DNA from: Sphingomonas sp. SORGH_AS_0879
GTDB taxonomy: Bacteria; Pseudomonadota; Alphaproteobacteria; Sphingomonadales; Sphingomonadaceae
Assembly (NCBI RefSeq): GCF_030819175.1
Contig: NZ_JAUTBJ010000001.1
Coordinates: 49,185 to 113,184, forward strand
Direction of reading: 5' to 3'
Length of the DNA: 64,000 nt
Under the pieces are notes generated by a model that was not told the DNA's origin, searched no databases, and worked only from the letters and a program-made list of their open reading frames with translations. Shown here in pieces: positions 44 to 14,773 of this stretch; the stretch's first letter is position 1; the number at the start of each line of letters is the position of its first letter. Made by a program: the position numbers and the translations under genes.

Positions 44-120
44 GGTGCCAGCCCGCTCCCCCACCCGGCCTCCCATCAGGATACCGTGTGGGGGGCCGGG
101 TGGGGGAGCGGGCTGGCACC
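44..120. repeat. Long GC-rich stem-loop with 27-bp perfect arms
   Basis: Arms at 44-70 and 94-120 are exact reverse complements, beginning GGTGCCAGCCCGCTCC, around a 23-nt loop. It sits 36 bp past the restored parA stop, so it may act as a terminator. Equally it may be a REP-type mobile hairpin of the kind scattered through the left half of the window. No T-run follows it. Confidence 0.7.
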
Positions 121-1365
121 GCCCCGAAACGCGCCCTCTCGCGAGTTTCGCAAGCTCAAGCCACCGCATGGATCACCGCCTCCTCGCTCGCCGGTTCGAT
201 CCGGCCCCAGCCCTGGCGGACCAGTTGCTCGACCTGGCGCATCGCCTCGTCCAGATTGGCGCGGCAGCGTTTGTGCGTCTTGGGCGTGCCGATCGGCTTT
301 TCGAGTTCGTAGACGGTCCATCATCCGCATCGCGGCATGGCTGATCTCGGCGGATTCCAGGATCGGCACGGGCAGCAGCGCGGGGCCGAAGCTTTGTTCC
401 ATGATCGCGCGCACCATGGCGTGGCTGGGGTCGTTGCCGTCGAACTTGGAGCAGATCAGCCGGACGAACTGGTAATCCACCTCGATTCCCGCGCTGGTCA
501 GTTGGTTCAACACCTGGTCCATCATCGACAGGAACTGGACGGTCGAGCAGAAATCCGGCGTCGTCGCGGCGAGCGGCACGAGCAGCGCATTGGCCGCCTG
601 CATCACCGCCAGGCTGATCGTGCCGAGGGCAGGGGGAGGATCGAGCAGCACCACGTCATAATCGCGCGCCAGTTCGGCCAGCCCGCGCTTCAGCTTGCGG
701 AACCGCGCGGCCAGCACCGACCCGCCATCGCTGCCCGCCGCGGCCAGTTCATATTCCACGTCGAACAATTCGAGGTTGGAAGGGATCAGATCGACATTGG
801 GCCAGGGCGTCGGCTTGACCGCATAGGCCAGGTCGGTCTGGGTCGGGTCGATCGACAGATAGGGGTAGAGCGTCTCTTCTCGGGTGACGTTGAAATGCGG
901 GTTGAAGCCGAACAGCGTCGTCGTCGTCGCCTGGCTGTCGCAATCGACGACCAGCACGCGGTAGCCCTGCACCGCGAAATAATGCGCCAGATGGGTGGTG
1001 ACGGTCGACTTGCCGACGCCGCCCTTGAAATTCTGGACCGCGATGATCGCGGGCACGTCATGCGCCGCGCGGGCAGGGGAGGCGCCCAGAACGTCGCGCA
1101 TCGTCAGCATCTGCTCGACGCTATAGCCCAGCCGACGGCCATTGTCGGTGATCGGGGCAGGGGGGAGGCGGCCATCCTCCTCCGCCATGCGGATGCGGTT
1201 GGTCGAACAGCCGAGCAACTGCGCCGCCTCCGCGATGCCGAAGCGGAGATGCAGGCCCTTGCGGCTCTCGGGCAGGAACGCCTTGCGCCGCAACCGCTCG
1301 ATCATCCGCTCGCCGGCGCTCGCCAGATCGCCAATCTGGGACAGCATTGCATGATCTTCCGCCAC
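76..1365 (-). CDS. parA: Plasmid partition ATPase ParA (frameshifted near its C-terminus)
   Basis: ParA-family Walker ATPase of the large type Ia class that positions plasmid copies together with ParB and parS. Residues ~40-95 form a MerR-like helix-turn-helix (AAQLLGCSTNRIRMAEEDGR) as in P1 ParA and RepABC RepA. Then come the deviant Walker A motif FKGGVGKST near residue 115, the switch region DCDSQATTT and the Walker B-like VVLLDPPPALGT. The start is GTG. After MRMM the frame is lost through an extra C at 318-319. Removing it restores a natural tail, TVYELEKPIGTPKTHKRCR and onward, ending at 156 rather than 76. No parB lies in the window; it should lie left of position 1. Family call is sure; the break may be a sequencing error. 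Confidence 0.9.
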   Translation of the reverse strand: MAEDHAMLSQIGDLASAGERMIERLRRKAFLPESRKGLHLRFGIAEAAQLLGCSTNRIRMAEEDGRLPPAPITDNGRRLGYSVEQMLTMRDVLGASPARAAHDVPAIIAVQNFKGGVGKSTVTTHLAHYFAVQGYRVLVVDCDSQATTTTLFGFNPHFNVTREETLYPYLSIDPTQTDLAYAVKPTPWPNVDLIPSNLELFDVEYELAAAGSDGGSVLAARFRKLKRGLAELARDYDVVLLDPPPALGTISLAVMQAANALLVPLAATTPDFCSTVQFLSMMDQVLNQLTSAGIEVDYQFVRLICSKFDGNDPSHAMVRAIMEQSFGPALLPVPILESAEISHAAMRMMDRLRTRKADRHAQDAQTLPRQSGRGDAPGRATGPPGLGPDRTGERGGGDPCGGLSLRNSREGAFRGGASPLPHPAPHTVS

Positions 1366-4632: not shown

Positions 4633-4676
4633 TTTCATCATAATATCATCGCCATTCCTCCAAAATGTCATCACGC
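4633..4676 (+). promoter_or_regulatory. Pho-box-like 11-bp repeats upstream of TonB receptor 1
   Basis: Units TTTCATCATAA (4633), TATCATCGCCA (4644) and TGTCATCACGC (4666) sit on an exact 11-bp register; the unit at 4655 is degenerate. This matches the direct-repeat architecture of PhoB boxes (CTGTCAT units every 11 bp). The gene start is 57 bp downstream. PhoB binding is inferred. Confidence 0.5.
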
Positions 4677-4732
4677 CGCAATGATCCGGCACCAAGGGAT
4701 CGCGGCATAATCCTTTGGGGGGAATAACCATC

Positions 4733-7090
4733 ATGACTTCGTTCAACCCGCGTTGCGCGGGGCGGTTCTTTGCGTCCAGCGTCCTGGCTCTTCTGATCGC
4801 CACGCCTGCCATGGCCGCCGATCCCGAACCGGCGAAAACGACCGCGCCCGATGAGCAGAAGACGACCGATGACGGCACGCTGGCCGAGGTCATCGTCACC
4901 GCGCAGAAGCGGCCCGAAAGCCTTCAGAAGACGCCGATCGCCATCTCGGTCCTGTCCGCCGACGACCTGAAGAACCGCCATGTCCAGTCGCTGGTCGATC
5001 TTCAGGACGGCGCGATCCCGTCGCTTCGCGTCGCGCCCTTCTATTCGCGCAACTCGGCGCTGATCATGAACATTCGCGGCATCGGCGTGCTGGCCGACAG
5101 CAACCAGCCCGCGCGCGACCAGGGCGTCGGCGTCTATATCGACGGCGTCTATCTCGGCCGCGCCCAGGGGCTGGGCACCGCGCTCTACGATATCGAGAGC
5201 ATCGAGGTGCTGAAGGGTCCGCAGGGCACGCTGTTCGGCCGCAATACCGAGGGCGGCGCGGTCAGCATCGTGACGAAGAAGCCCACCGGCGAGTTCGGCC
5301 TGTCGGCGACGGCGGGCATCGGCAATTTCGGCGCGCACAAGATCGAGGCGCATCTCAACCTGCCCGAATGGCAGAATTTCAGCGTCAAGCTGGACGGCAT
5401 CGTCACCAAGCGGAACGGGCTGGTCGACAATCCGCTGCCCGGCCAGTCGGACTTCAATGGCTTCGACCGGCATGGCGGGCATGTGGAAGTGCTGTGGAAG
5501 CCGCAGGACGGCGTCAGCGCGGATTATGCCTTCGACACCTCCTACGACGCCTCGACCCCGCTCTATCTCCAGACGATCACGGCGGGCACACTGACCCGCG
5601 CGCCCGCGCTGCCGCTCCAGCCCGACCGGGTGCGCACCGCCAGCGTCGGGGTGCCGCAGCAGGACAGCATCGGCAAGACCCATGGCCACCGCCTGACGCT
5701 CGGCCTCGACCTGGCGCCGGGACTTCAGCTCAAGTCGATCACCGCATACCGCGAGCTGGACCAGAGCCAATATGACAATGGCGGCCAGAACAGCACCACC
5801 TACAAGCCCAACGGCGCGTTCAGCCGCTACAGCCTGGCGGGCTTTACCCAGAACCAGTTCAGCCAGGAAATCCAGTTGATCGGCGACACCCCGCGCCTGA
5901 AATATGTCGCGGGTGCGATGGCGTATCGCGAGCATAGCGAGGACAATGCCCAGGCGTTCAACACCATGGTGTGGAATGCGGACGGCACCGCCGCGACCGT
6001 CGCCACCTATAATATCGCGACCGTCCCCTTCGACCGCGCCAGCCGGATCACGACGCGCAGCATCGGCGCCTTCGGCCAGGCGACCTGGACCCCGGCGATC
6101 CTGGACGACCGCCTGCACCTGACCGGGGGCGCGCGCTATACCCGCGACATGAAGCATGGCGAGTTGTTCATCGTGAACGGCGCCACCCCCAATGTCGACG
6201 GGGTGACGGGGCCGCGTCGCCTGAATGCCGCCTGGTCGCGGGTCGATCCGCTGCTGACGCTGGCCTATGACGTGACCGGCGACGTGCATGTCTATGGCAA
6301 ATGGTCGGAGGGGTATAAGTCGGGCGGCGCCAATTCGCGCTCGCTGCGCTATGCGCCGTTCAACCCGGAAATCCTGTCGATGTTCGAGATCGGGGCGAAG
6401 ACCGAGTTTCTCGACCACCGCGCCCGCCTGAACCTGTCCGCCTATACCGGCGCGTACAAGTCGATCCAGATCGACTTCCAGGCCAATTACCTCCAGGTCG
6501 ATGCGCAGGGCAATCTGCTCCAGACCAACCGGACGACCATCGAGACCGCCAATGCGCCCGGCACCGGCCGCGCCAAGGGGTTCGAGGCGGAGCTGACCTT
6601 CGCGCCGATGACCGGGCTGACGCTGGGGGCCAGCTATTCCTATAACGACCTGACCATCCCGGCGACGGTCAATCCCTTCCCGCAAGGGGCGAGCGGCGTG
6701 GTGGTGACGACGCCGATCAAAATCTACCCGGTCTATACCCCGGCGCACGCCGCCAGCGGCGCGATCGACTATGATCGGCCGATGGGTGATGTCACCTTGG
6801 TCGCGCATCTCGACGGCAATTACGACAGCGGCTTCTACGCCAATTACAACGACCCCGCGCCGGGGGTGAGCCAGCCCAAGGGCGATCCGGGCTTCGTCGT
6901 CAACGGTCGGCTCGGCATCACCGATATCGCGCTGAACGGCACCGGCGCGACGCTCAGCGTCGCCGCCTGGGCGCGCAACCTGCTGAACGAACAGCATATG
7001 TTCTACAAGGGGCTGAACACGCTGACCGGCGTGTCGGGCTTCTTCAACGAACCGCGCACCTATGGCCTCGAAGCCACGGTGAAGTTCTGA
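4733..7090 (+). CDS. TonB-dependent outer-membrane receptor 1
   Basis: 785-residue receptor that imports a ligand across the outer membrane using TonB energy. Signal peptide ends near ATPAMAA. A TonB-box-like segment (LAEVIVTAQKRPESLQKTPI) is followed by the plug with IESIEVLKGPQGTLFGRNTE and then a C-terminal barrel ending in FNEPRTYGLEATVKF, with terminal Phe. Start set at ATG 4733 behind a GGGGGG stretch. The stop overlaps the start of a secreted phosphatase by one base, so the two are co-transcribed, and Pho-box-like repeats lie upstream. A phosphate-ester ligand is suggested by context, not shown by the sequence. Confidence 0.9.
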   Translation: MTSFNPRCAGRFFASSVLALLIATPAMAADPEPAKTTAPDEQKTTDDGTLAEVIVTAQKRPESLQKTPIAISVLSADDLKNRHVQSLVDLQDGAIPSLRVAPFYSRNSALIMNIRGIGVLADSNQPARDQGVGVYIDGVYLGRAQGLGTALYDIESIEVLKGPQGTLFGRNTEGGAVSIVTKKPTGEFGLSATAGIGNFGAHKIEAHLNLPEWQNFSVKLDGIVTKRNGLVDNPLPGQSDFNGFDRHGGHVEVLWKPQDGVSADYAFDTSYDASTPLYLQTITAGTLTRAPALPLQPDRVRTASVGVPQQDSIGKTHGHRLTLGLDLAPGLQLKSITAYRELDQSQYDNGGQNSTTYKPNGAFSRYSLAGFTQNQFSQEIQLIGDTPRLKYVAGAMAYREHSEDNAQAFNTMVWNADGTAATVATYNIATVPFDRASRITTRSIGAFGQATWTPAILDDRLHLTGGARYTRDMKHGELFIVNGATPNVDGVTGPRRLNAAWSRVDPLLTLAYDVTGDVHVYGKWSEGYKSGGANSRSLRYAPFNPEILSMFEIGAKTEFLDHRARLNLSAYTGAYKSIQIDFQANYLQVDAQGNLLQTNRTTIETANAPGTGRAKGFEAELTFAPMTGLTLGASYSYNDLTIPATVNPFPQGASGVVVTTPIKIYPVYTPAHAASGAIDYDRPMGDVTLVAHLDGNYDSGFYANYNDPAPGVSQPKGDPGFVVNGRLGITDIALNGTGATLSVAAWARNLLNEQHMFYKGLNTLTGVSGFFNEPRTYGLEATVKF

Positions 7091-7929
7091 TGCGCGGCCT
7101 TCTCACCCTGGCGCTGCTGGTCGCGGTTCCGTTGGGGGCGGGGGCTTCGGCCTCCGCGCCCGTCGCGGCCCCGGCGCACCAGCGGGTGCTGCCGCTTCAG
7201 GGCGGGCGGAATTTCCGCGACCTGGGCGGCTATCGCACCCTGGACGGGCGGACGGTCAAATGGGGGCTGCTCTATCGCTCGGGCCAGATGCACGACCTGA
7301 CCCCGGCGGATTATGCCTATCTCCAGAAACTGGGCATCCGCACCGTCTGCGATTTCCGCGACACCCGCGAACGCACGGGCGAGCCGACCAACTGGCCCGC
7401 CGGGCAAAAGCCCAAAGTGTTGAGCGACGATTATGCGCTCGACATGAGCGGCATGATGCTGCCCGGCGATCCATCGACCTGGACGCATGAACAGGTGGTG
7501 GCGGCGATGACGGCGACCTATCCCAAGCTGCTCGACCAGTTCCGGGGGCAGTACCGCCGCATGTTCGCCGAACTGCTGGCCGGGAACGCGCCGCTCGCCT
7601 TCCACTGCACGGCGGGCAAGGACCGGACCGGCGTGGCGGCCGCGCTGCTCCTGTCGGCGCTGGGCGTGCCGAGGGCGACTGTCATCGAGGATTACCTCCT
7701 CTCCAACCAGCATATGGCCCCGCCGCCCGCGCATCCGACCGGCTTCTGGGCCAAGCTGTCGCCCGAGGCCGCGCGAACCTTCGCCGGGGTCGACCGCCGC
7801 TATATCGAGGCGGTGTTCGCCGTGACCGACCGGCATCCGGGCGGCACCATGGGCTATCTGAAGGACGAACTGGGCGTGGACCCGGCCAGGATCGCGAAGC
7901 TGCGGGGGCTGTACTTAACCAGGAAGTGA
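7090..7929 (+). CDS. Secreted tyrosine/dual-specificity-type phosphatase
   Basis: 279 residues with a Sec signal peptide (LLTLALLVAVPLGAGASA), so periplasmic or exported. The family opening GGRNFRDLGGYRTLDG leads to the catalytic P-loop HCTAGKDRTG near residue 175, which holds the CX5R signature of Cys-dependent phosphatases (the bacterial Y_phosphatase3 type). ATG overlaps the stop of the TonB receptor (TGATG). With the upstream Pho-box-like repeats this suggests release of phosphate from organic esters in the periplasm. Activity on lipids or phytate is possible for this fold; the true substrate is not known. Confidence 0.88.
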   Translation: MRGLLTLALLVAVPLGAGASASAPVAAPAHQRVLPLQGGRNFRDLGGYRTLDGRTVKWGLLYRSGQMHDLTPADYAYLQKLGIRTVCDFRDTRERTGEPTNWPAGQKPKVLSDDYALDMSGMMLPGDPSTWTHEQVVAAMTATYPKLLDQFRGQYRRMFAELLAGNAPLAFHCTAGKDRTGVAAALLLSALGVPRATVIEDYLLSNQHMAPPPAHPTGFWAKLSPEAARTFAGVDRRYIEAVFAVTDRHPGGTMGYLKDELGVDPARIAKLRGLYLTRK

Positions 7930-8058
7930 TTCCTCCCCGGCACGGGGAGGTGGCATCGCGTAGCGATGACGGAGGGGGGCTTCCTCATAGGACGTCCCGT
8001 GCGGCGATCCCCCTCCACCATGCTTCGCATGGTCCCCCTCCCCGTTTCGGGGAGGATT
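7929..8058. repeat. Intergenic REP-like hairpin element
   Basis: Starts TCCTCCCCGGCACGGGGAGG and ends CCCTCCCCGTTTCGGGGAGG, enclosing GCGTAGCGATGACGGAGGGG and CCATGCTTCGCATGG minihairpins. It lies directly after the phosphatase stop and may end its transcript. Same family as the element at 1461. Confidence 0.7.
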
Positions 8059-8097
8059 CAGCCGTATGTCGTCCTTGGAAATCGATCCTGACGACGG

Positions 8098-8130
8098 CGT
8101 CATGTAAACGTCATCTGGTTAACATCGCGC
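8098..8130 (+). promoter_or_regulatory. Pho-box-like 11-bp repeats upstream of TonB receptor 2/phytase
   Basis: Three units in perfect 11-bp register: CGTCATGTAAA (8098), CGTCATCTGGT (8109), TAACATCGCGC (8120). The first two share CGTCAT, very close to the CTGTCAT core of PhoB boxes. The receptor start lies 81 bp downstream. This is the clearest of three such sites in the island. Confidence 0.6.
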
Positions 8131-8211
8131 CGTAACATTGCGCCGCCACGGGGGCGGGAAGGACCGATGCCGGGGAGGGTGTCGGCACGACCAGCGCCCA
8201 GGGGGAGCATC

Positions 8212-11007
8212 ATGCACGCCATTCGTTCCGGCATCCGCGGTTTCGCGGGGGCCTCGCTCATCGCATTGGGGCTTGCCGCCAGCCCGGCATTCGCCCTTGC
8301 CAGCGATGCCGCACCGGCGGGCGTGCCCGCCTCCGGGCCGATCCTGTCTGGGCGCATCTATGACGCGACCGGCGTTGCCTTGCCCGGCGCGCGGGTCGTG
8401 GTCGAGGGGACGGGGGTTCAGGCGACCACCAACCTCCAGGGCGAATTCAGCATCGTCACGCCCGAGGAAGCGGGCGACGTCACCCTGCTGATCGACTATC
8501 TGGGGCGCGCAGGCATCACCCATGTCGTCGCGGCGGCCGATCGCGGGCGTCCCGTCTCGCTGACCCTGCCCGCCGCCAGCGGCGAGCCCGGCGATATCGT
8601 CGTCACCGGCGCCTCGCTGCTCGACAATACCGCGCGCGCGCTCAACCAGCAGCGGACGGCGGACAACACCGTCACCATCATCTCGGCCGACGCCATCGGC
8701 CGCTTCCCCGATCCCAATATCGCCGAAGCGCTGCAACGCGCGCCCGGCGTCGGCATCGAGCGCGACCAGGGCGAGGGCCGCTATATCAACGTGCGCGGCG
8801 CGCCGAGCGAGTGGTCGGCCGTGTCGGTCGACGGCATCCAGATCCCCTCGGTCGACCCGACCACGCGGGCCGTCGACTTGGACACCTTGCCCTCCGACAT
8901 CGTCGCCAATCTGGAGGTGACCAAGTCGCTGCTCCCCTATCAGGATGCGGACTCGATCGCGGGCGCGGTCAACATCACCACCCGCTCGCCCTTCGACCGC
9001 AAGGGCTTCGCGCTGACCGGCATGGGCGGCATGAGCTACAACCAGTTCGGCAAGGGCCATGACTATCGCGGATCGGCCGCGGTCAGCGATACCTTCGGCC
9101 CGGATCGCCAGTTCGGCCTGCTGCTCTCGGGCAGCTATTCGATGACCCATCGCCGCCCCGACAATGTCGAAAACACCTGGACCCAGACCCCGGCGGGGCT
9201 GCGCGTCACCGAAACCTTGTTCAAGGATTACGACACCAAGCGCCAGCGTATCGCGGGCACCGGCGCGTTCGAATGGCGTCCGTCCGACCTGACCCATGCC
9301 TGGGTGCGCGGCACCTATGCCCGGTTCGAGGATGACGAGTTTCGCGATCGCATTGGTATCCTCTGGAGCGAGGGCACGCTCCAGGCCGGATCGACCGACC
9401 GCGCCGCGACGTACCGCAACACCCGCATCGAGAAGCAGGTCCGCCACCGCAAGCAGGTCAACGAAATCTGGTCGGCCACGGCGGGCATCGAACAGCGGCT
9501 GGGCGAGGGGACGATCCGCGCGGATGTCGCCTATAGCGAAAGCTCGCAGACCTATCCGCGTCGCGACGAACTGCTGTTCCGCTCCAGCCTGCGCCCGACG
9601 CTGTCCTATGATTTCGCCGATGCCGACCTGCCCGGCTATTCGCTATTCACCTCGAAGGAGCATCTCCAGACCGGAACCTTCGCCTTTCGCGAGAACGCCT
9701 ATCGGTCGAACACGACGAAGAATGACGAACTGACGCTGGCGGTCCGCTCCGACCTGCCGGTGGGCGAGACGGTGACCTTCTCGACCGGCGGCAAATATCG
9801 CGCGCGGCATATCAACGCCGATGAAGAGCGGTTCCGCGACCGCCGCGCCAGCGCCGCCCCGAGCCAGAGCCTGACGGGGCTGCTGTCGGATCAGGACTCG
9901 CGCAATTTCGGCTATGACCTGGGCCAGCGGTTCGACACCGGGCTGGCGGACGCCTATTTCGACGCGACCAAGGCCGCCTCGGAACGCCGCCTGCCGCAGT
10001 CGCTGACCGCCGATTATGTCGCGGAGGAGAAGATCCTCGGCCTGTTCGGCATGGCGAAATATGTGAAGGACGGCACCACCCTGATCGCGGGGCTTCGCGT
10101 CGAGACGACCGATTTCGAGAGCAGCGCGCCCAGCGTCTCGCGCACCGGCGCGGTCACCAATGCGCGTGGGCATAACAGCTATGCCGATGTCTTCCCGAAC
10201 CTGACGCTGCGCCAGGCCTTCACGCCCAACCTGATCCTGCGCGCCGCGCTGAGCCGCGCGATCAACCGTCCCAACTTCCCGCAGATCGCCCCGCGCGTGC
10301 TGGAGACGAGCGAGGGCAATACGGTGCGGGTCGAGTTCGGCAATCCCGACCTGAAGCCGACCCTGTCCAACAACGCCGATGCGGGTCTGGAATATTACAT
10401 CCGGCCGCTGGGCGTGATCTCGGTCAACGGCTTCTACAAGGACCTGTCCGACTATCGCTACACGCTGACCAGCACGGGCATCTACAACGGCGTGGGGGGC
10501 GCGATCCTCAGCCGCCCGGTCAATGCGCGGGCTGGCGAGCTGTACGGCGTCGAGGTCAACTGGCAGCAGCATCTCAGCTTCCTGCCCGGCGTGCTGAGCG
10601 GGTTCGGGGTGTTCGCCAATTACACCTATACCAAGGGCCATGCGACGTTCGACACCGCCTATGCCGGGCGCAGCCGCTTCGCGCTGCCGGGCCAGTCGAC
10701 GCATATGTGGAACGCCAGCCTCTTCTACGAGCGCGGGCCGTTGAATGTCCGCGTCGCCTATACCAAGCGGTCGGACTATCTGGACGAGATCAACGCCGAC
10801 AACCCCGCGCTGGACCTGTATTGGGAAGGTCGCGGCCAACTCGACGTGACGGGCAGCGTGCAGCTTGCCAAGGGCATCAACCTGTTCGCCGAGGGCAAGA
10901 ACCTGACCAACACGCCGGGCGTGCGCTATTTCGGCGAACGGTATCGGACGTACGAATATGAGAAGTTCGGCTATACCGTCTTCGCCGGTGTGCGGGTGAA
11001 GCTGTGA
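8212..11007 (+). CDS. TonB-dependent receptor 2 with N-terminal carboxypeptidase-regulatory-like domain
   Basis: 931-residue receptor. Signal peptide ends near ASPAFALA. Residues ~40-120 form a CarboxypepD_reg-like beta domain (GRIYDATGVALPGARVVVEG), then a plug with FPDPNIAEALQRAPGVGIER and RYINVRGAPSEWSAVSVDGI, typical of the large sphingomonad/Caulobacter TonB receptors. The barrel ends GYTVFAGVRVKL. Start ATG 8212 follows GGGGGAG; an upstream ATG at 8167 is less likely. The stop overlaps the GTG of a phytase gene by 4 bp (GTGA), so the pair is translationally coupled. Phytate or another phosphorylated compound is a reasonable ligand guess. Confidence 0.9.
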   Translation: MHAIRSGIRGFAGASLIALGLAASPAFALASDAAPAGVPASGPILSGRIYDATGVALPGARVVVEGTGVQATTNLQGEFSIVTPEEAGDVTLLIDYLGRAGITHVVAAADRGRPVSLTLPAASGEPGDIVVTGASLLDNTARALNQQRTADNTVTIISADAIGRFPDPNIAEALQRAPGVGIERDQGEGRYINVRGAPSEWSAVSVDGIQIPSVDPTTRAVDLDTLPSDIVANLEVTKSLLPYQDADSIAGAVNITTRSPFDRKGFALTGMGGMSYNQFGKGHDYRGSAAVSDTFGPDRQFGLLLSGSYSMTHRRPDNVENTWTQTPAGLRVTETLFKDYDTKRQRIAGTGAFEWRPSDLTHAWVRGTYARFEDDEFRDRIGILWSEGTLQAGSTDRAATYRNTRIEKQVRHRKQVNEIWSATAGIEQRLGEGTIRADVAYSESSQTYPRRDELLFRSSLRPTLSYDFADADLPGYSLFTSKEHLQTGTFAFRENAYRSNTTKNDELTLAVRSDLPVGETVTFSTGGKYRARHINADEERFRDRRASAAPSQSLTGLLSDQDSRNFGYDLGQRFDTGLADAYFDATKAASERRLPQSLTADYVAEEKILGLFGMAKYVKDGTTLIAGLRVETTDFESSAPSVSRTGAVTNARGHNSYADVFPNLTLRQAFTPNLILRAALSRAINRPNFPQIAPRVLETSEGNTVRVEFGNPDLKPTLSNNADAGLEYYIRPLGVISVNGFYKDLSDYRYTLTSTGIYNGVGGAILSRPVNARAGELYGVEVNWQQHLSFLPGVLSGFGVFANYTYTKGHATFDTAYAGRSRFALPGQSTHMWNASLFYERGPLNVRVAYTKRSDYLDEINADNPALDLYWEGRGQLDVTGSVQLAKGINLFAEGKNLTNTPGVRYFGERYRTYEYEKFGYTVFAGVRVKL

Positions 11008-12023
11008 GGGCCGCGTTCCTGACGCTGCTGCTCGCCGGGTGCGCCAGCGTGCCCGCCGCGACGCCGATCACCGCGCCCAATGTCGCCGCCAGCGCCGAGA
11101 CCGATCCGGTCGACAGCACATCGGATGCGGCGGACGATCCCGCCATCTGGCGCAACGCCGCCAACCCGGCCGCCAGCCTGGTCATCGGCACCGACAAGCA
11201 GGCGGGCATCCATGTCTATGACCTGAAGGGCAAGCGCCTGTCCTTCACGCCGGCCGCGCGGCTCAACAATGTCGATCTGCGCGAGATGGCGGGGGGCCGG
11301 GTGATCGTGGCGGCCAGCGACCGGGCGGACAAGGCGAACGCGCATGTCGCGCTGTTCACGCTCGACACCACCGCGCGCCGACTGGTGCCGATGGGCCGCT
11401 ATCCGGTGGGGGCGGGCGAGGCGTACGGCATGTGCCTGTGGACCCGCGCGAAGGACAAGGCGCTGTTCGGCTTCGTCGTGCTCAAGGACGGGCGGATCGA
11501 TCAGGTCCGCATCGACCTGTCCACCGCCACCCCGCGCGTCGAACGGTTGCGCAGCATGAAGCTCGCCAGCCAGGCCGAGGGCTGCGTGGTCGATGACCGC
11601 ACCGGCCTTCTCTATGTTGCCGAGGAAGATGTCGGGCTGTGGCGCTTTGCCGCCGACCCCGCCGCGCCGACCACCGGCACGCCGATCGCCAGGGTAGACG
11701 GCCGCACGCTGGTCGCCGATGCCGAAGGGCTGGCGCTGGCGCCCAAGGGGGCGAAGGGCGGCTATCTGGTCGTCTCCAGCCAGGGGGACAATGGCTATAG
11801 CCTCTACCGCCTGCCGGGCGTGACCTATGCCGGGCGCTTCCGGATCGGCGGGGGTGCGATCGACGGGACGAGCGACACCGACGGGATCGAACTGGCGCTG
11901 GGCGATTTCGGGCCGGATTATCCCAAGGGCCTGTTCGTCGCCCAGGACGGCGACAACGCGCCGGATACGCAGAATTTCAAATATGTCGGCTGGGGGAAGG
12001 TCGTCGAGGCGCTAGGGCTGTAG
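11004..12023 (+). CDS. Beta-propeller phytase (lipoprotein)
   Basis: 339 residues. Beta-propeller phytases hydrolyse inositol hexakisphosphate in a Ca-dependent way. Seen here: DDPAIWRNAANPAASLVIGT and DKQAGIHVYDLKGKRLSF near the N-terminus, a late GLFVAQDGDNAPDTQNFKYV, and a mid-protein QAEGCVVDDRTGLLYVAEED, all family landmarks. A lipobox (LLLAGC, Cys near residue 13) predicts membrane anchoring. Start is GTG, overlapping the receptor stop by 4 bp. With the receptor and the Pho-box-like site this makes a phytate-use operon. Confidence in the family is high; substrate preference is inferred. Confidence 0.92.
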   Translation: MRAAFLTLLLAGCASVPAATPITAPNVAASAETDPVDSTSDAADDPAIWRNAANPAASLVIGTDKQAGIHVYDLKGKRLSFTPAARLNNVDLREMAGGRVIVAASDRADKANAHVALFTLDTTARRLVPMGRYPVGAGEAYGMCLWTRAKDKALFGFVVLKDGRIDQVRIDLSTATPRVERLRSMKLASQAEGCVVDDRTGLLYVAEEDVGLWRFAADPAAPTTGTPIARVDGRTLVADAEGLALAPKGAKGGYLVVSSQGDNGYSLYRLPGVTYAGRFRIGGGAIDGTSDTDGIELALGDFGPDYPKGLFVAQDGDNAPDTQNFKYVGWGKVVEALGL

Positions 12024-12033
12024 GGTCCTCGAC

Positions 12034-12138
12034 GCTCCCCTCCCCTTCAGGGGAGGGGCCGGGGGTGGGGCGCTTCCGCAAACGCGACGCCGGTTGGAGA
12101 GGCCCCACCCCAACCCCTCCCCTGAAGGGGAGGGGCTC
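12034..12138. repeat. Paired GC-rich hairpins between convergent genes (probable terminator)
   Basis: Two copies of a CCCCTCCCC-TTCA-GGGGAGGGG type hairpin in inverted order, with GGGGGTGGGG and its partner between them. They lie between the phytase stop and the convergent TonB receptor stop, so they probably act as a two-way terminator. A half copy recurs at 30936. Confidence 0.6.
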
Positions 12139-12153
12139 GGCCCGGATCGCGCT

Positions 12154-14705
12154 TCAGAACAGCTTGCGCACCCCGACCCGGACCGAGCGGCCGATGGGGT
12201 CGAGATAGGCGGGCTGGAAGCGGTTGGGCGTATCGCCGTTGCGGTCGGTGACGTTGATCCGGTCGTTCAGCAGGTTCTCGACCGTGACATTGACGTTCAG
12301 CCCCTTGGTCCAGGGCCGGTCGAGGATCTTGTCGACCTTGAGGAAGCTGTACAGGACCAGCCAGGTCCGGCCGGAAAAGCGCAGGTCGGACGCGGCGATG
12401 TCGCTGCGGATACGGGTCGGCCCCTGGACGCGGCCATAAAGGCCGAGATTGAACAGGCCATAGTTGACATAGCCGTTCAGCTCGACATCCCAGCGCGGGC
12501 GGCCCCCGGTGCCGTTCAGCGTCGCCCCGTCCAGCAGGTCGAGCACCGGCCCGCCGCTGCGCAGGGTCAGCCGGTCCTCCAGCCGGTAATTGGTCGTCGC
12601 CGACACCGACAGGAATCCCGGCTCCTTGCGCGGGCGGGGCGGCGGGGCGGTCTTTGCCGCATCGGGGGAGGGGGCCGCGGCGGGCGGGGGCGGGGTCTTG
12701 CCCAGCCGGGTCTGGAGATTGACCGCGATCCGCAGCTTGCGCTCCCGCTCGAACGCCAGATTGACCGGGCGCAGATCGACGCTGACCAACTGCCCCAGCG
12801 CGTCGGGACGAACAGGTCGGGAAAGACGCGCTGAAAGGCCGGCGTCGCCCCGCCCAGCGAAGCCGCCTGATTGTCGATCCGCGTGTCGAGATAATCCAGG
12901 CCGAAGCGGATTTCCTTGTCCCTGACCGGCTGGACCGCGATGCCCAGCGTCGTGACCCGCCGCTTTTCGGGCGCCAGATCGGGATTGCCGCCCATGATCG
13001 TGGTGACCAGCGTCGAGCGCCCCGTCACGAAGTCGAAAAAGGGGATGTTGGGCGTCGCCAGCACCGGCGCGACCAGTTGCGTCATGGCGGGCGCGGCCTG
13101 TGCGATGTTGACCGAGGCGCTGAACTGGACGGGGCGGAACGGCGTCCAGTTCAGCCCGATATTGGAATTGCTCAGCCGCCCGAAATCCGACACCTGCGAC
13201 ACACCCGCCATGCCGTCCAACTGCAATTCGCCGAGAAAGCCCAGCGAGCCCTCGCGCGCCGAGGCGAGGGGCAGGCTGGCATTGACGCTGGCCCCGCGCG
13301 TAGTGCGGCCGACCCCGTCGTCGGGCAGCGCCAGGCTGGTGGTCGCGCGGCTGTCGATCCGGGCATAATCGGTGGTGACGGTCAGCAGCGCGTCGCCGGC
13401 GGGCAGATGGACGACGGGGCCGTCGGCGGTCGCCTTGATCCCCAGCGTGTCGGACGCCGCTCGGCTCCGGTTGCGGGTACGAAGGGCAGCGGTCGCGGGA
13501 TCGATCGCCGCCATCGGGTCCCCGCCCGCATCGATCGCCGCCTGAAGCGCGTTCAGCGGCACTCCCGTCTCGGAATTGCTGCGCGACGCCAGCCGGTCGT
13601 AATTGCCGGTCACCGCCCAGCTCCAGCGGCGGACGGTGCCGGTCAGCGAACCGCCCGCGTGCAGCGCCATGCTGGTCGTCCGCTGGCGCAGCACGCTGTC
13701 GGGCAGATAGCGATAGAGGAGGGTGTCATCGGCGAAGGGAAAGCCCCCCAGCCCGCCGGGCACGCGCAGCAGGGCGGGGGACAGGCCGTTCAGCCCGCGC
13801 GTCTGGACCGCCGCCATCGACAGCATCACCGACCCCGACACCGTCTTGCCGAGCGGCGAGGCCAGGCTCGCCTCGCTATGGATCGTGTCGCTCAACGGCT
13901 GGAGCGTGCGATAGGGCCCCAGATCGGTGACCCCCGCCGGGCTGTTCGCATAGGCGGCAAGCGTGCCCCGCATCGCCGGATCGACCGGCACCCCGGCCAC
14001 AGTGACGCTCCGCCCCGCCAGCAGGTCGAGGCGGGGGTCCAGGCTGGCCCCGTTCACGCCGGTCACATTGCCACCGCTCGCGAACAGCGTGTCGGGATCG
14101 GGCACGATATCGCGCTGGCTCTGCAACACCGGGTCCTGCCGCAGATGCGAGACGTTGAAGGTCAGGCGGCGCGGCCCGTCGATCCGGGCCGAGGTGACTT
14201 CGCTATATTTGGTGCCGCCCCCGCCCTCGGTGGTGATGCCGGGCAGGAGCTGGACCGTGACCGCGCGGAATCTCTTCTTGGTGATGAAGTTCATCACACG
14301 GACATTGGGCGGATAGCCGAAGCGCGCCGCCTCCTGCTCGGGCAATATCTCGATCCGCTCCATCGCCTCATAGGGCAGGCTCTGGAATTCGGCGAAGCCC
14401 GAGACGCGGCGTCCGTTGAGCAGCATCACCGGCTCGCCCCCGCCGGACGAACTGGTCAGCGCCTTCACCCGCTTGAGCAACTCGGTCAGGTTGGGGGCGC
14501 CCATGGCGTCCAGCGCCTGGGCATCCAGCACCGCGACCGGCTCGACCGCGCCGATGACGGAGCCGGGGATGCGCTTGCCGGTGACGGTGACTTCGGCGGG
14601 CGGAGCGCCCGTGTCGGTCTGGGCGAAGGCCGGGGCCGACAGGCCCAGGGCGACGACCGACCATGCCGCGCGGCGCTTCGGCCGCACGCTCCCCTTAGCT
14701 CGCAT
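12154..14705 (-). pseudogene. TonB-dependent receptor 3, split by a 1-base frameshift
   Basis: About 850 residues when the frame is restored. Signal peptide ends near SAPAFAQ. The plug carries MLLNGRRVSGFAEFQSLPYE and AMERIEILPEQEAARFGYPP instead of the common GPQGTLFG, a divergent plug class. The barrel ends GRSVRVGVRKLF. The frame breaks after FPDLFVP: the minus strand has CCC (12805-12807) where CCCC would continue as DALGQLVSVDLRPVNLAF. A Pro/Ala-rich insert (PPPPAAAPSPDAAKTAPPP) sits in the last third. The upstream region has Pho-box-like repeats. The gene may be intact if the missing base is a sequencing error. Confidence 0.8.
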
Positions 14706-14751
14706 CGTCCAGCCACTCCCATCGCCGACGTGAAGGCGGCAGATACTGTGG

Positions 14752-14773
14752 CAACCATGTCACAATTATGGCA
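14752..14773 (-). promoter_or_regulatory. Pho-box-like tandem repeat upstream of TonB receptor 3
   Basis: On the minus strand TGCCATAATTG is followed directly by TGACATGGTTG: two 11-bp units sharing CAT and TTG, as in PhoB boxes. It lies 47 bp upstream of the receptor start. Weaker units (ATGTCAAGCTT, CTCTCAAAAAA) continue upstream in the same register. Confidence 0.5.

Follow-up and report, generated by a model that had tools for sequence, protein, structure and literature searches.

Do the TonB-dependent receptor genes that lie together on one contig of Sphingomonas sp. SORGH_AS_0879 answer to phosphate starvation, along with the phosphatase and phytase genes beside them? An earlier note on this DNA had suggested so. 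It described CAT-containing units spaced 11 bp apart upstream of three receptor genes (here TBDR1, TBDR2, and TBDR3), read them as boxes for PhoB, and placed the three receptors, a phosphatase, and a phytase in one phosphate (Pho) regulon. We analyzed a stretch of 64,000 nucleotides, called the window below (contig NZ_JAUTBJ010000001.1, positions 49,185 to 113,184, forward strand), which is part of a 113-kb contig, C1; coordinates of features are those of the window. We consider it quite likely that two plasmid-borne operons, TBDR1-phosphatase and TBDR2-phytase, belong to the PhoB regulon, and that their receptors import phosphate esters that the partner enzymes then cleave. TBDR3 probably lies outside that regulon.

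Two receptor genes overlap genes for phosphate-releasing enzymes

The two operons and their promoters consist of the following features.

4633..4694, plus strand: PHO-box-like promoter of TBDR1 (three-unit box at 4666/4677/4688 and a conserved TTTCATCA at 4633; matrix score 13.8 bits at 4663)
4733..7090, plus strand: TBDR1, TonB-dependent receptor, 785 aa (Pfam Plug, 62 bits)
7090..7929, plus strand: tyrosine-phosphatase-type enzyme (PF13350, 230.6 bits, cut-off 22.2)
8095..8137, plus strand: PHO-box-like promoter of TBDR2-phytase (11-bp units at 8098/8109/8120; matrix score 15.2 bits at 8095)
8212..11007, plus strand: TBDR2, TonB-dependent receptor, 931 aa, with an N-terminal carboxypeptidase-regulatory-like domain (TIGR01782, PF00593, PF07715, PF13715)
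11004..12023, plus strand: beta-propeller phytase (PF02333, 258.2 bits, cut-off 21)

Profile matches bear out the gene content given in the earlier note, three TonB receptors with a phosphatase and a phytase, except that TBDR3 is not one intact open reading frame (ORF). The pairing of two receptors, each with its own phosphatase, also holds: the start of the PF13350 gene overlaps the stop of TBDR1 by 1 nt, and the phytase gene overlaps TBDR2 by 4 nt. Residues 27-338 of the 339-residue phytase align with the solved phytase 1poo, which predicts phytate hydrolysis, and the leader contains a putative, lipobox-like LLLAGC, judged by eye. A putative leader peptide was likewise judged by eye in the PF13350 phosphatase. 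This enzyme matches two solved chains, 8dhi and 1ywf/PtpB, and contains HCTAGKDRTG, which we take to be the CX5R loop that is the rule in tyrosine phosphatases. It gave no match to the Pfam model of PTP-like (cysteine) phytases; at E values up to 0.001, it matched only PF13350 and PF22785. Co-transcription of each gene pair and export of both enzymes are predicted from these sequences.

TBDR2 passes the model of TonB-Xanth-Caul receptors, TIGR01782 (568.9 bits, cut-off 310), and the best NCBIfam match of TBDR1, TIGR01783, scores 107.6 bits, under the cut-off of 223.5. Membership of the SusC family was considered for both receptors and rejected, as TBDR2 and TBDR1 score 44.8 and 40.2 bits with the SusC/RagA model TIGR04056, far under the cut-off of 368.25 bits; the term "SusC-like" used at first is thus a mere analogy. 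No SusD partner was seen among the neighboring ORFs, to which the search for SusD was confined.

Boxes upstream of TBDR1 and TBDR2

The genome has phoR-pstSCAB-phoU-phoB on its larger contig (C2). PhoB is an equivalog match (TIGR02154, 334.8 bits, cut-off 296.2), and PstC, PstA, PstB, and PhoU are above their model cut-offs; for PstS and PhoR, the top-scoring model is the expected one, with a score below its cut-off. A pstS match was found in 91 of 99 family genomes. To model PhoB boxes, a 34-bp matrix was trained solely on 29 pstS promoters, the best of the set from the 91 genomes, with the own genome left out. These 29 promoters share a three-unit motif with an 11-bp period, roughly TGTCAT-nAAA-nTGTCAC-nAAn-nTGTCACA. 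The own pstS promoter, which was left out of training, scores 34.1 bits.

We ran the matrix on the window, on a background of 400 kb taken at even intervals along the genome's other contig, and on selected stretches. With both strands counted, the three top window sites are 8095 (15.2 bits), 14744 (15.2 bits), and 4663 (13.8 bits), all on the plus strand. Not one of the 798,680 background positions reaches 15.2 bits, and one reaches 13.8. Among 192 promoter regions of the other contig, where genes were called by a simple ORF and third-position-GC rule, four score at least 8.5 bits and one at least 13 when the gene's strand is read; the opposite strand gives counts of four and two. The sole gene-strand promoter with at least 13 bits is that of phoD (13.6 bits), which supports the matrix. 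Ranked across the window and the 400-kb sample, the TBDR1 and TBDR2 sites stand above random promoters, as the earlier note would have it, but well below pstS. The genome has 85 Plug matches (TBDR3 is not among these), and 84 of their upstream regions were scored, the other lying at a contig end; in the gene's orientation, eight of the 84, those of TBDR1 and TBDR2 included, score 13 bits or more.

The spacing of CAT units was compared with that in 2000 mononucleotide shuffles per promoter. TBDR2 has three CAT pairs at 11, 22, or 33 bp (8098 CGTCATG, 8109 CGTCATC, 8120 TAACATC), and the fraction of shuffles with as many is 0. TBDR1 also has three (4633 TTTCATC, 4644 TATCATC, 4666 TGTCATC), with a fraction of 0.002. 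Of the periodic CAT units reported before all three receptors, those at these two promoters exceed chance; TBDR3 has a single pair and a nonsignificant fraction of 0.0755. At TBDR1, two of the units first noted, 4633 and 4666, are conserved and the third, 4644, is not; two aligned plasmid relatives keep 4633 and lack 4644. The top-scoring, conserved box is instead 4666/4677/4688, TGTCATC-ACGC-CGCAATG-ATCC-GGCACC, which the window and the two plasmid relatives share at −70 (13.8, 15.1, and 8.7 bits).

Simpler patterns were also tried. The plain pattern GTCATNNNNNCGTCAT was rejected as evidence, being uninformative at up to one mismatch (2 window matches versus 1.17 expected). It matches exactly at 8099, one of three exact matches in the 4.33-Mb genome; the third, C2:3094376, was rejected as a box, lying at the start of a receptor coding region with a matrix score of −3.6. 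A simple consensus scan found no window site at its threshold. With up to two mismatches, the same plain pattern of two half-sites gave 745 forward and 689 reverse matches, compared with 78 and 101 when the pattern was reversed; these counts pool coding with noncoding positions and were not taken as evidence.

Conservation of the boxes at related loci

A phytase match is present in 88 of the 199 family genomes searched. We sampled 40 phytase loci (the 20 top-ranking ones, not counting the query, and 20 chosen by hand from further down; 34 genera as labeled), and in 39 of these a TBDR2 match lies in the same stretch as the phytase. Thirty-eight loci were evaluable, with L212 excluded for a masked promoter (5501 N) and L086 for having no TBDR2 match. 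At 30 of the 38 loci, the receptor promoter or the region between receptor and phytase contains a box of at least 8.5 bits in the receptor's orientation, compared to 1 of 599 control windows drawn from the same loci. At stricter thresholds, 22 of 38 loci remain at 10 bits and 16 of 38 at 13 bits, with controls still at 1 of 599; on the opposite strand, five loci reach 8.5 bits. The genomes are related, hence the loci are not independent events, and some also supplied pstS training promoters. Plasmid copies agree, in that the TBDR2 promoters of seven plasmid relatives have the box at 12.4-20.3 bits.

For the TBDR1 operon, we tallied 20 PF13350 loci, 19 from relatives plus the own chromosomal paralog (L102), with box positions judged from the score listing. 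A box precedes the receptor or the phosphatase at six (L097-L100, L110, and L114), including four of the five closest. PhoB regulation is the most likely reading of this strong comparative evidence for both operons, with PhoB binding and induction predicted from the promoter sequences.

Several observations weigh against that reading. The TBDR1 and TBDR2 boxes, at 13.8-15.2 bits, are far weaker than the own pstS box at 34.1. Eight of the 38 evaluable phytase loci are under 8.5 bits on the receptor's strand, and that threshold was fixed after the first scores were known. No box precedes the receptor or phosphatase at 14 of the 20 PF13350 loci, L102 included, although four of those 14 have one elsewhere within the stretch. 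For five of the 84 receptor genes, a score of 13 bits is attained on the wrong strand, so single matrix hits are not decisive, and some hits lie beside genes for alanine racemase, thiolase, and trehalase, with no evident link to phosphate. Finally, phytase was not found on either of two plasmids that have TBDR2 at 92% identity; receptor-phytase coupling is therefore not obligatory.

A plasmid with predicted chromosomal control

Contig C1 is a plasmid, as its RepA (PF10134, 218.2 bits), ParB (SoPB_HTH), and ParA genes, found by profile search, attest. RepA and ParB lie just beyond the window edge (stretch L046), and ParA is within the window.

76..1365, minus strand: ParA-type plasmid ATPase (AAA_31/CbiA profile match)

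The order RepA-ParB-ParA is that of Sphingomonas parapaucimobilis p2, and on both plasmids it is followed by glutaredoxin-type, MerR-type, and ABC1/AarF genes and then by the TBDR1-phosphatase genes. Plasmid pNP2-R2 of S. sanguinis has the same succession in part; compared with C1, both p2 and pNP2-R2 have additional genes interspersed. When the ends of C1 were compared over lengths from 15 to 500 bases, they showed no exact overlap. In PLSDB, phytase matches occur on 17 plasmids, seven of them from sphingomonads at 81-91% identity. In the relatives' stretches L168 (15204-18292) and L170 (3092-6042), TBDR2 is followed by a nucleotide-sugar dehydrogenase gene with no phytase gene in the interval, although the PHO-like box before TBDR2 is kept. 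No PF00486-type regulator was found on C1, all 16 matches in the genome being on the larger contig; the plasmid operons would therefore answer to chromosomal PhoB.

Further matrix hits on the chromosome

A chromosomal receptor (C2:4036058; L266:3891-7627) with a 17.8-bit box overlaps by 1 nt a gene for a Ca-dependent phosphoinositide phospholipase C (PI-PLC; PF16670, 385 bits), and this pair has the same design as the plasmid operons. The phoD box has a divergent receptor alongside, and a PhoU-like-pitA operon has an 11.5-bit box upstream. A 19.7-bit box goes with a phosphoesterase-glycosyltransferase operon (calcineurin-like phosphoesterase and GT4; L274:3003-3965, C2 about 1686-1687 kb). This last operon, followed by a transposase, possibly serves lipid remodeling under phosphate starvation.

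The best receptor box in the genome scores 27.8 bits (C2:807892; L264:9553-9598, C2 about 808.6 kb) and overlaps a second at 24.0. It precedes a 1093-aa receptor, and no phosphatase was seen among the seven neighboring ORFs scanned. Another receptor, of 1025 aa, in a cluster of three receptor-like genes, is preceded by five GTCAT/GACAT/GTCAC units (L041:4827-4879, C2 about 462.8-462.9 kb), the final three in 11-bp phase at 16.5 bits.

Import before cleavage, or cleavage before import?

How would the two operons work? When phosphate is short, chromosomal PhoR-PhoB would act on the tandem 11-bp boxes that immediately precede the two receptor genes and so activate both operons. TBDR2 would import a phosphate ester, probably phytate, and TBDR1 a phosphomonoester, perhaps an inositol phosphate or a phosphoinositide head group. 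The enzyme of the same operon would then cleave the imported ester, and the freed phosphate would enter via PstSCAB or PitA. We infer transport and substrates from the gene neighborhood alone.

It is also possible, if rather unlikely, that the enzymes come first. The phytase and phosphatase might act before the receptor, at the surface or in the medium, or independently of it; what the receptor imports would then be the cleavage product, a metal complex, or some unrelated ligand, with the operon merely tying both to phosphate starvation. The retention of TBDR2 at 92% identity on plasmids where phytase was not found would fit such an order of events, as would the lipobox-like phytase leader, which does not fix the side that the enzyme faces, and the nature of the best NCBIfam match of TBDR1, a siderophore-receptor model matched below cut-off. 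However, the receptor and enzyme genes overlap, a TBDR2 match accompanies the phytase at 39 of 40 family loci, and phytate import by such a receptor has been suggested in print, in the available text of PMC3400609. Import followed by cleavage is thus the reading we prefer for both operons.

TBDR3 has a different conserved site

The third receptor gene lies on the other strand, with a distinct element upstream.

12154..14705, minus strand: TBDR3, TonB-dependent receptor (frame break near 12.8 kb, with the C terminus continuing in another frame)
14747..14764, no strand: 18-bp inverted repeat TGTGRCA-N4-TGYCACA upstream of TBDR3 (single occurrence in the 4.33-Mb genome)

Full-length TBDR3 copies are annotated as 2.6-kb genes in L167, L170, and L275, and the copy of S. 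paucimobilis Kira, like the one in the window, is in pieces as annotated; the frame break may be either a sequencing error or decay. Of the minus-strand units first noted, 14763 (GTGACAT) does contain CAT, but 14752 (GCCACAG) does not, and the second CAT unit is 14774 (ATGCCAT).

A degenerate or reversed box could make TBDR3 a Pho regulon member as well, but this seems improbable to us. The site at 14744 scores 15.2 bits on the strand opposite the gene and 7.7 on the gene's strand, its position near −71 resembles that of the TBDR1 box, and one relative, L275, reaches 12.3 bits on the gene's strand. However, in the comparison among plasmid relatives, the others have only 3.4 and 4.1 bits on that strand, and the opposite strand gives 6.8, 6.1, and 3.5 bits for the three. 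The first CAT unit reads CTT in all three full-length relatives, and the conserved core of the site is close to the inverted repeat, which is exact in one of the three and has one mismatch in two. With the CAT unit not conserved, the best score on the wrong strand, and scores lost in most relatives, we rejected TBDR3 as a member; the proposed single regulon is supported for the TBDR1 and TBDR2 promoters, by matrix and conservation, but not for this one. The inverted repeat is perhaps the operator of another regulator; this reading and the exclusion of TBDR3 are both of modest certainty.

Another regulator for the tandem repeats?

Like PhoB, other regulators of the OmpR/PhoB family recognize direct repeats, and TonB receptors can be under their control. 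That the 11-bp repeats are sites of one of these, e.g., a ChvI-like or OmpR-like regulator, is quite improbable: the 16 PF00486 matches on the larger contig, window scores well under pstS, and the mention of TonB-dependent proteins in a paper on the Caulobacter envelope regulator ChvGI (PMC9731502) would fit, but the matrix comes from pstS promoters only, its further hits include phoD, pitA, and the phosphoesterase operon, and the operons encode phosphate-releasing enzymes.

What the operons may mean

Much of the phosphorus in soil is organic, and a large share of this is inositol phosphate. Judging by their family names, two of the three enzyme families found with receptors have inositol phosphates or phosphoinositides as substrates. 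Most TonB receptors have no known substrate, and this genome alone has 85 Plug matches; where a PHO-like box precedes a receptor gene whose operon also encodes a phosphoesterase, a testable substrate prediction follows. The pst-trained matrix also yields further candidate receptors and enzymes. The plasmid location suggests a trait that can be gained or lost while control remains chromosomal. It is tempting to go further and see such plasmids as a mobile "plug-in" for the host Pho regulon, with receptor and inositol-phosphate-hydrolase operons that chromosomal PhoB reads and that, with the receptor-PI-PLC pair, might form a receptor-coupled network for scavenging inositol phosphates and phosphoinositides, in which each class of substrate has an outer-membrane importer of its own. 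We offer this broader picture as a tentative one, more doubtful than not.

Comparison with known systems

Our literature search, which covered titles and abstract openings with subscription journals mostly outside its scope and so is no proof, found no PhoB-controlled plasmid phytase-receptor operon of Sphingomonas. Parts of the arrangement have been described elsewhere. Flavobacterium johnsoniae has phosphate utilization systems (PusCD) and a low-phosphate-inducible TonB-dependent transporter beside a 3-phytase, according to the available text of PMC8115612. As here, starvation-induced TonB receptors lie beside phosphomonoesterases, phosphodiesterases, or phytase, and an import-and-cleave model has already been proposed there. 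In contrast, that organism belongs to the Bacteroidetes, and its PusCD clusters contain SusD lipoproteins; our operons are alphaproteobacterial and plasmid-borne, have PHO-like boxes, and have no SusD seen beside them.

Closer in taxonomy, the PhoB regulon of Caulobacter crescentus, also an alphaproteobacterium, includes several TonB-dependent receptors and a phytase (PMC11208175), whereas receptor-enzyme operons and a plasmid location are not described in the available part of that paper. In Citromicrobium, a TonB-dependent transporter adjoins a phytase, the same receptor-phytase adjacency as at TBDR2, and phytic acid is the proposed substrate; unlike here, PhoB is absent from the main text and no plasmid link is described in the portion available (PMC3400609). 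The nearest counterparts are plasmids of S. paucimobilis, S. insulae, and Sphingomonadaceae OTU29 in PLSDB. These have the same TBDR-phytase operon at 81-92% protein identity, with a box in all five promoters scored (L167, L172, L173, L174, and L175), and differ in giving no match to TBDR1 or TBDR1-phosphatase within the stretches compared. The receptor-enzyme arrangement is thus real and conserved, yet it resembles systems described in other bacteria. Less expected are a plasmid location under what would be chromosomal control and the use of three enzyme families, phytase, PF13350 phosphatase, and PI-PLC, in one and the same design.

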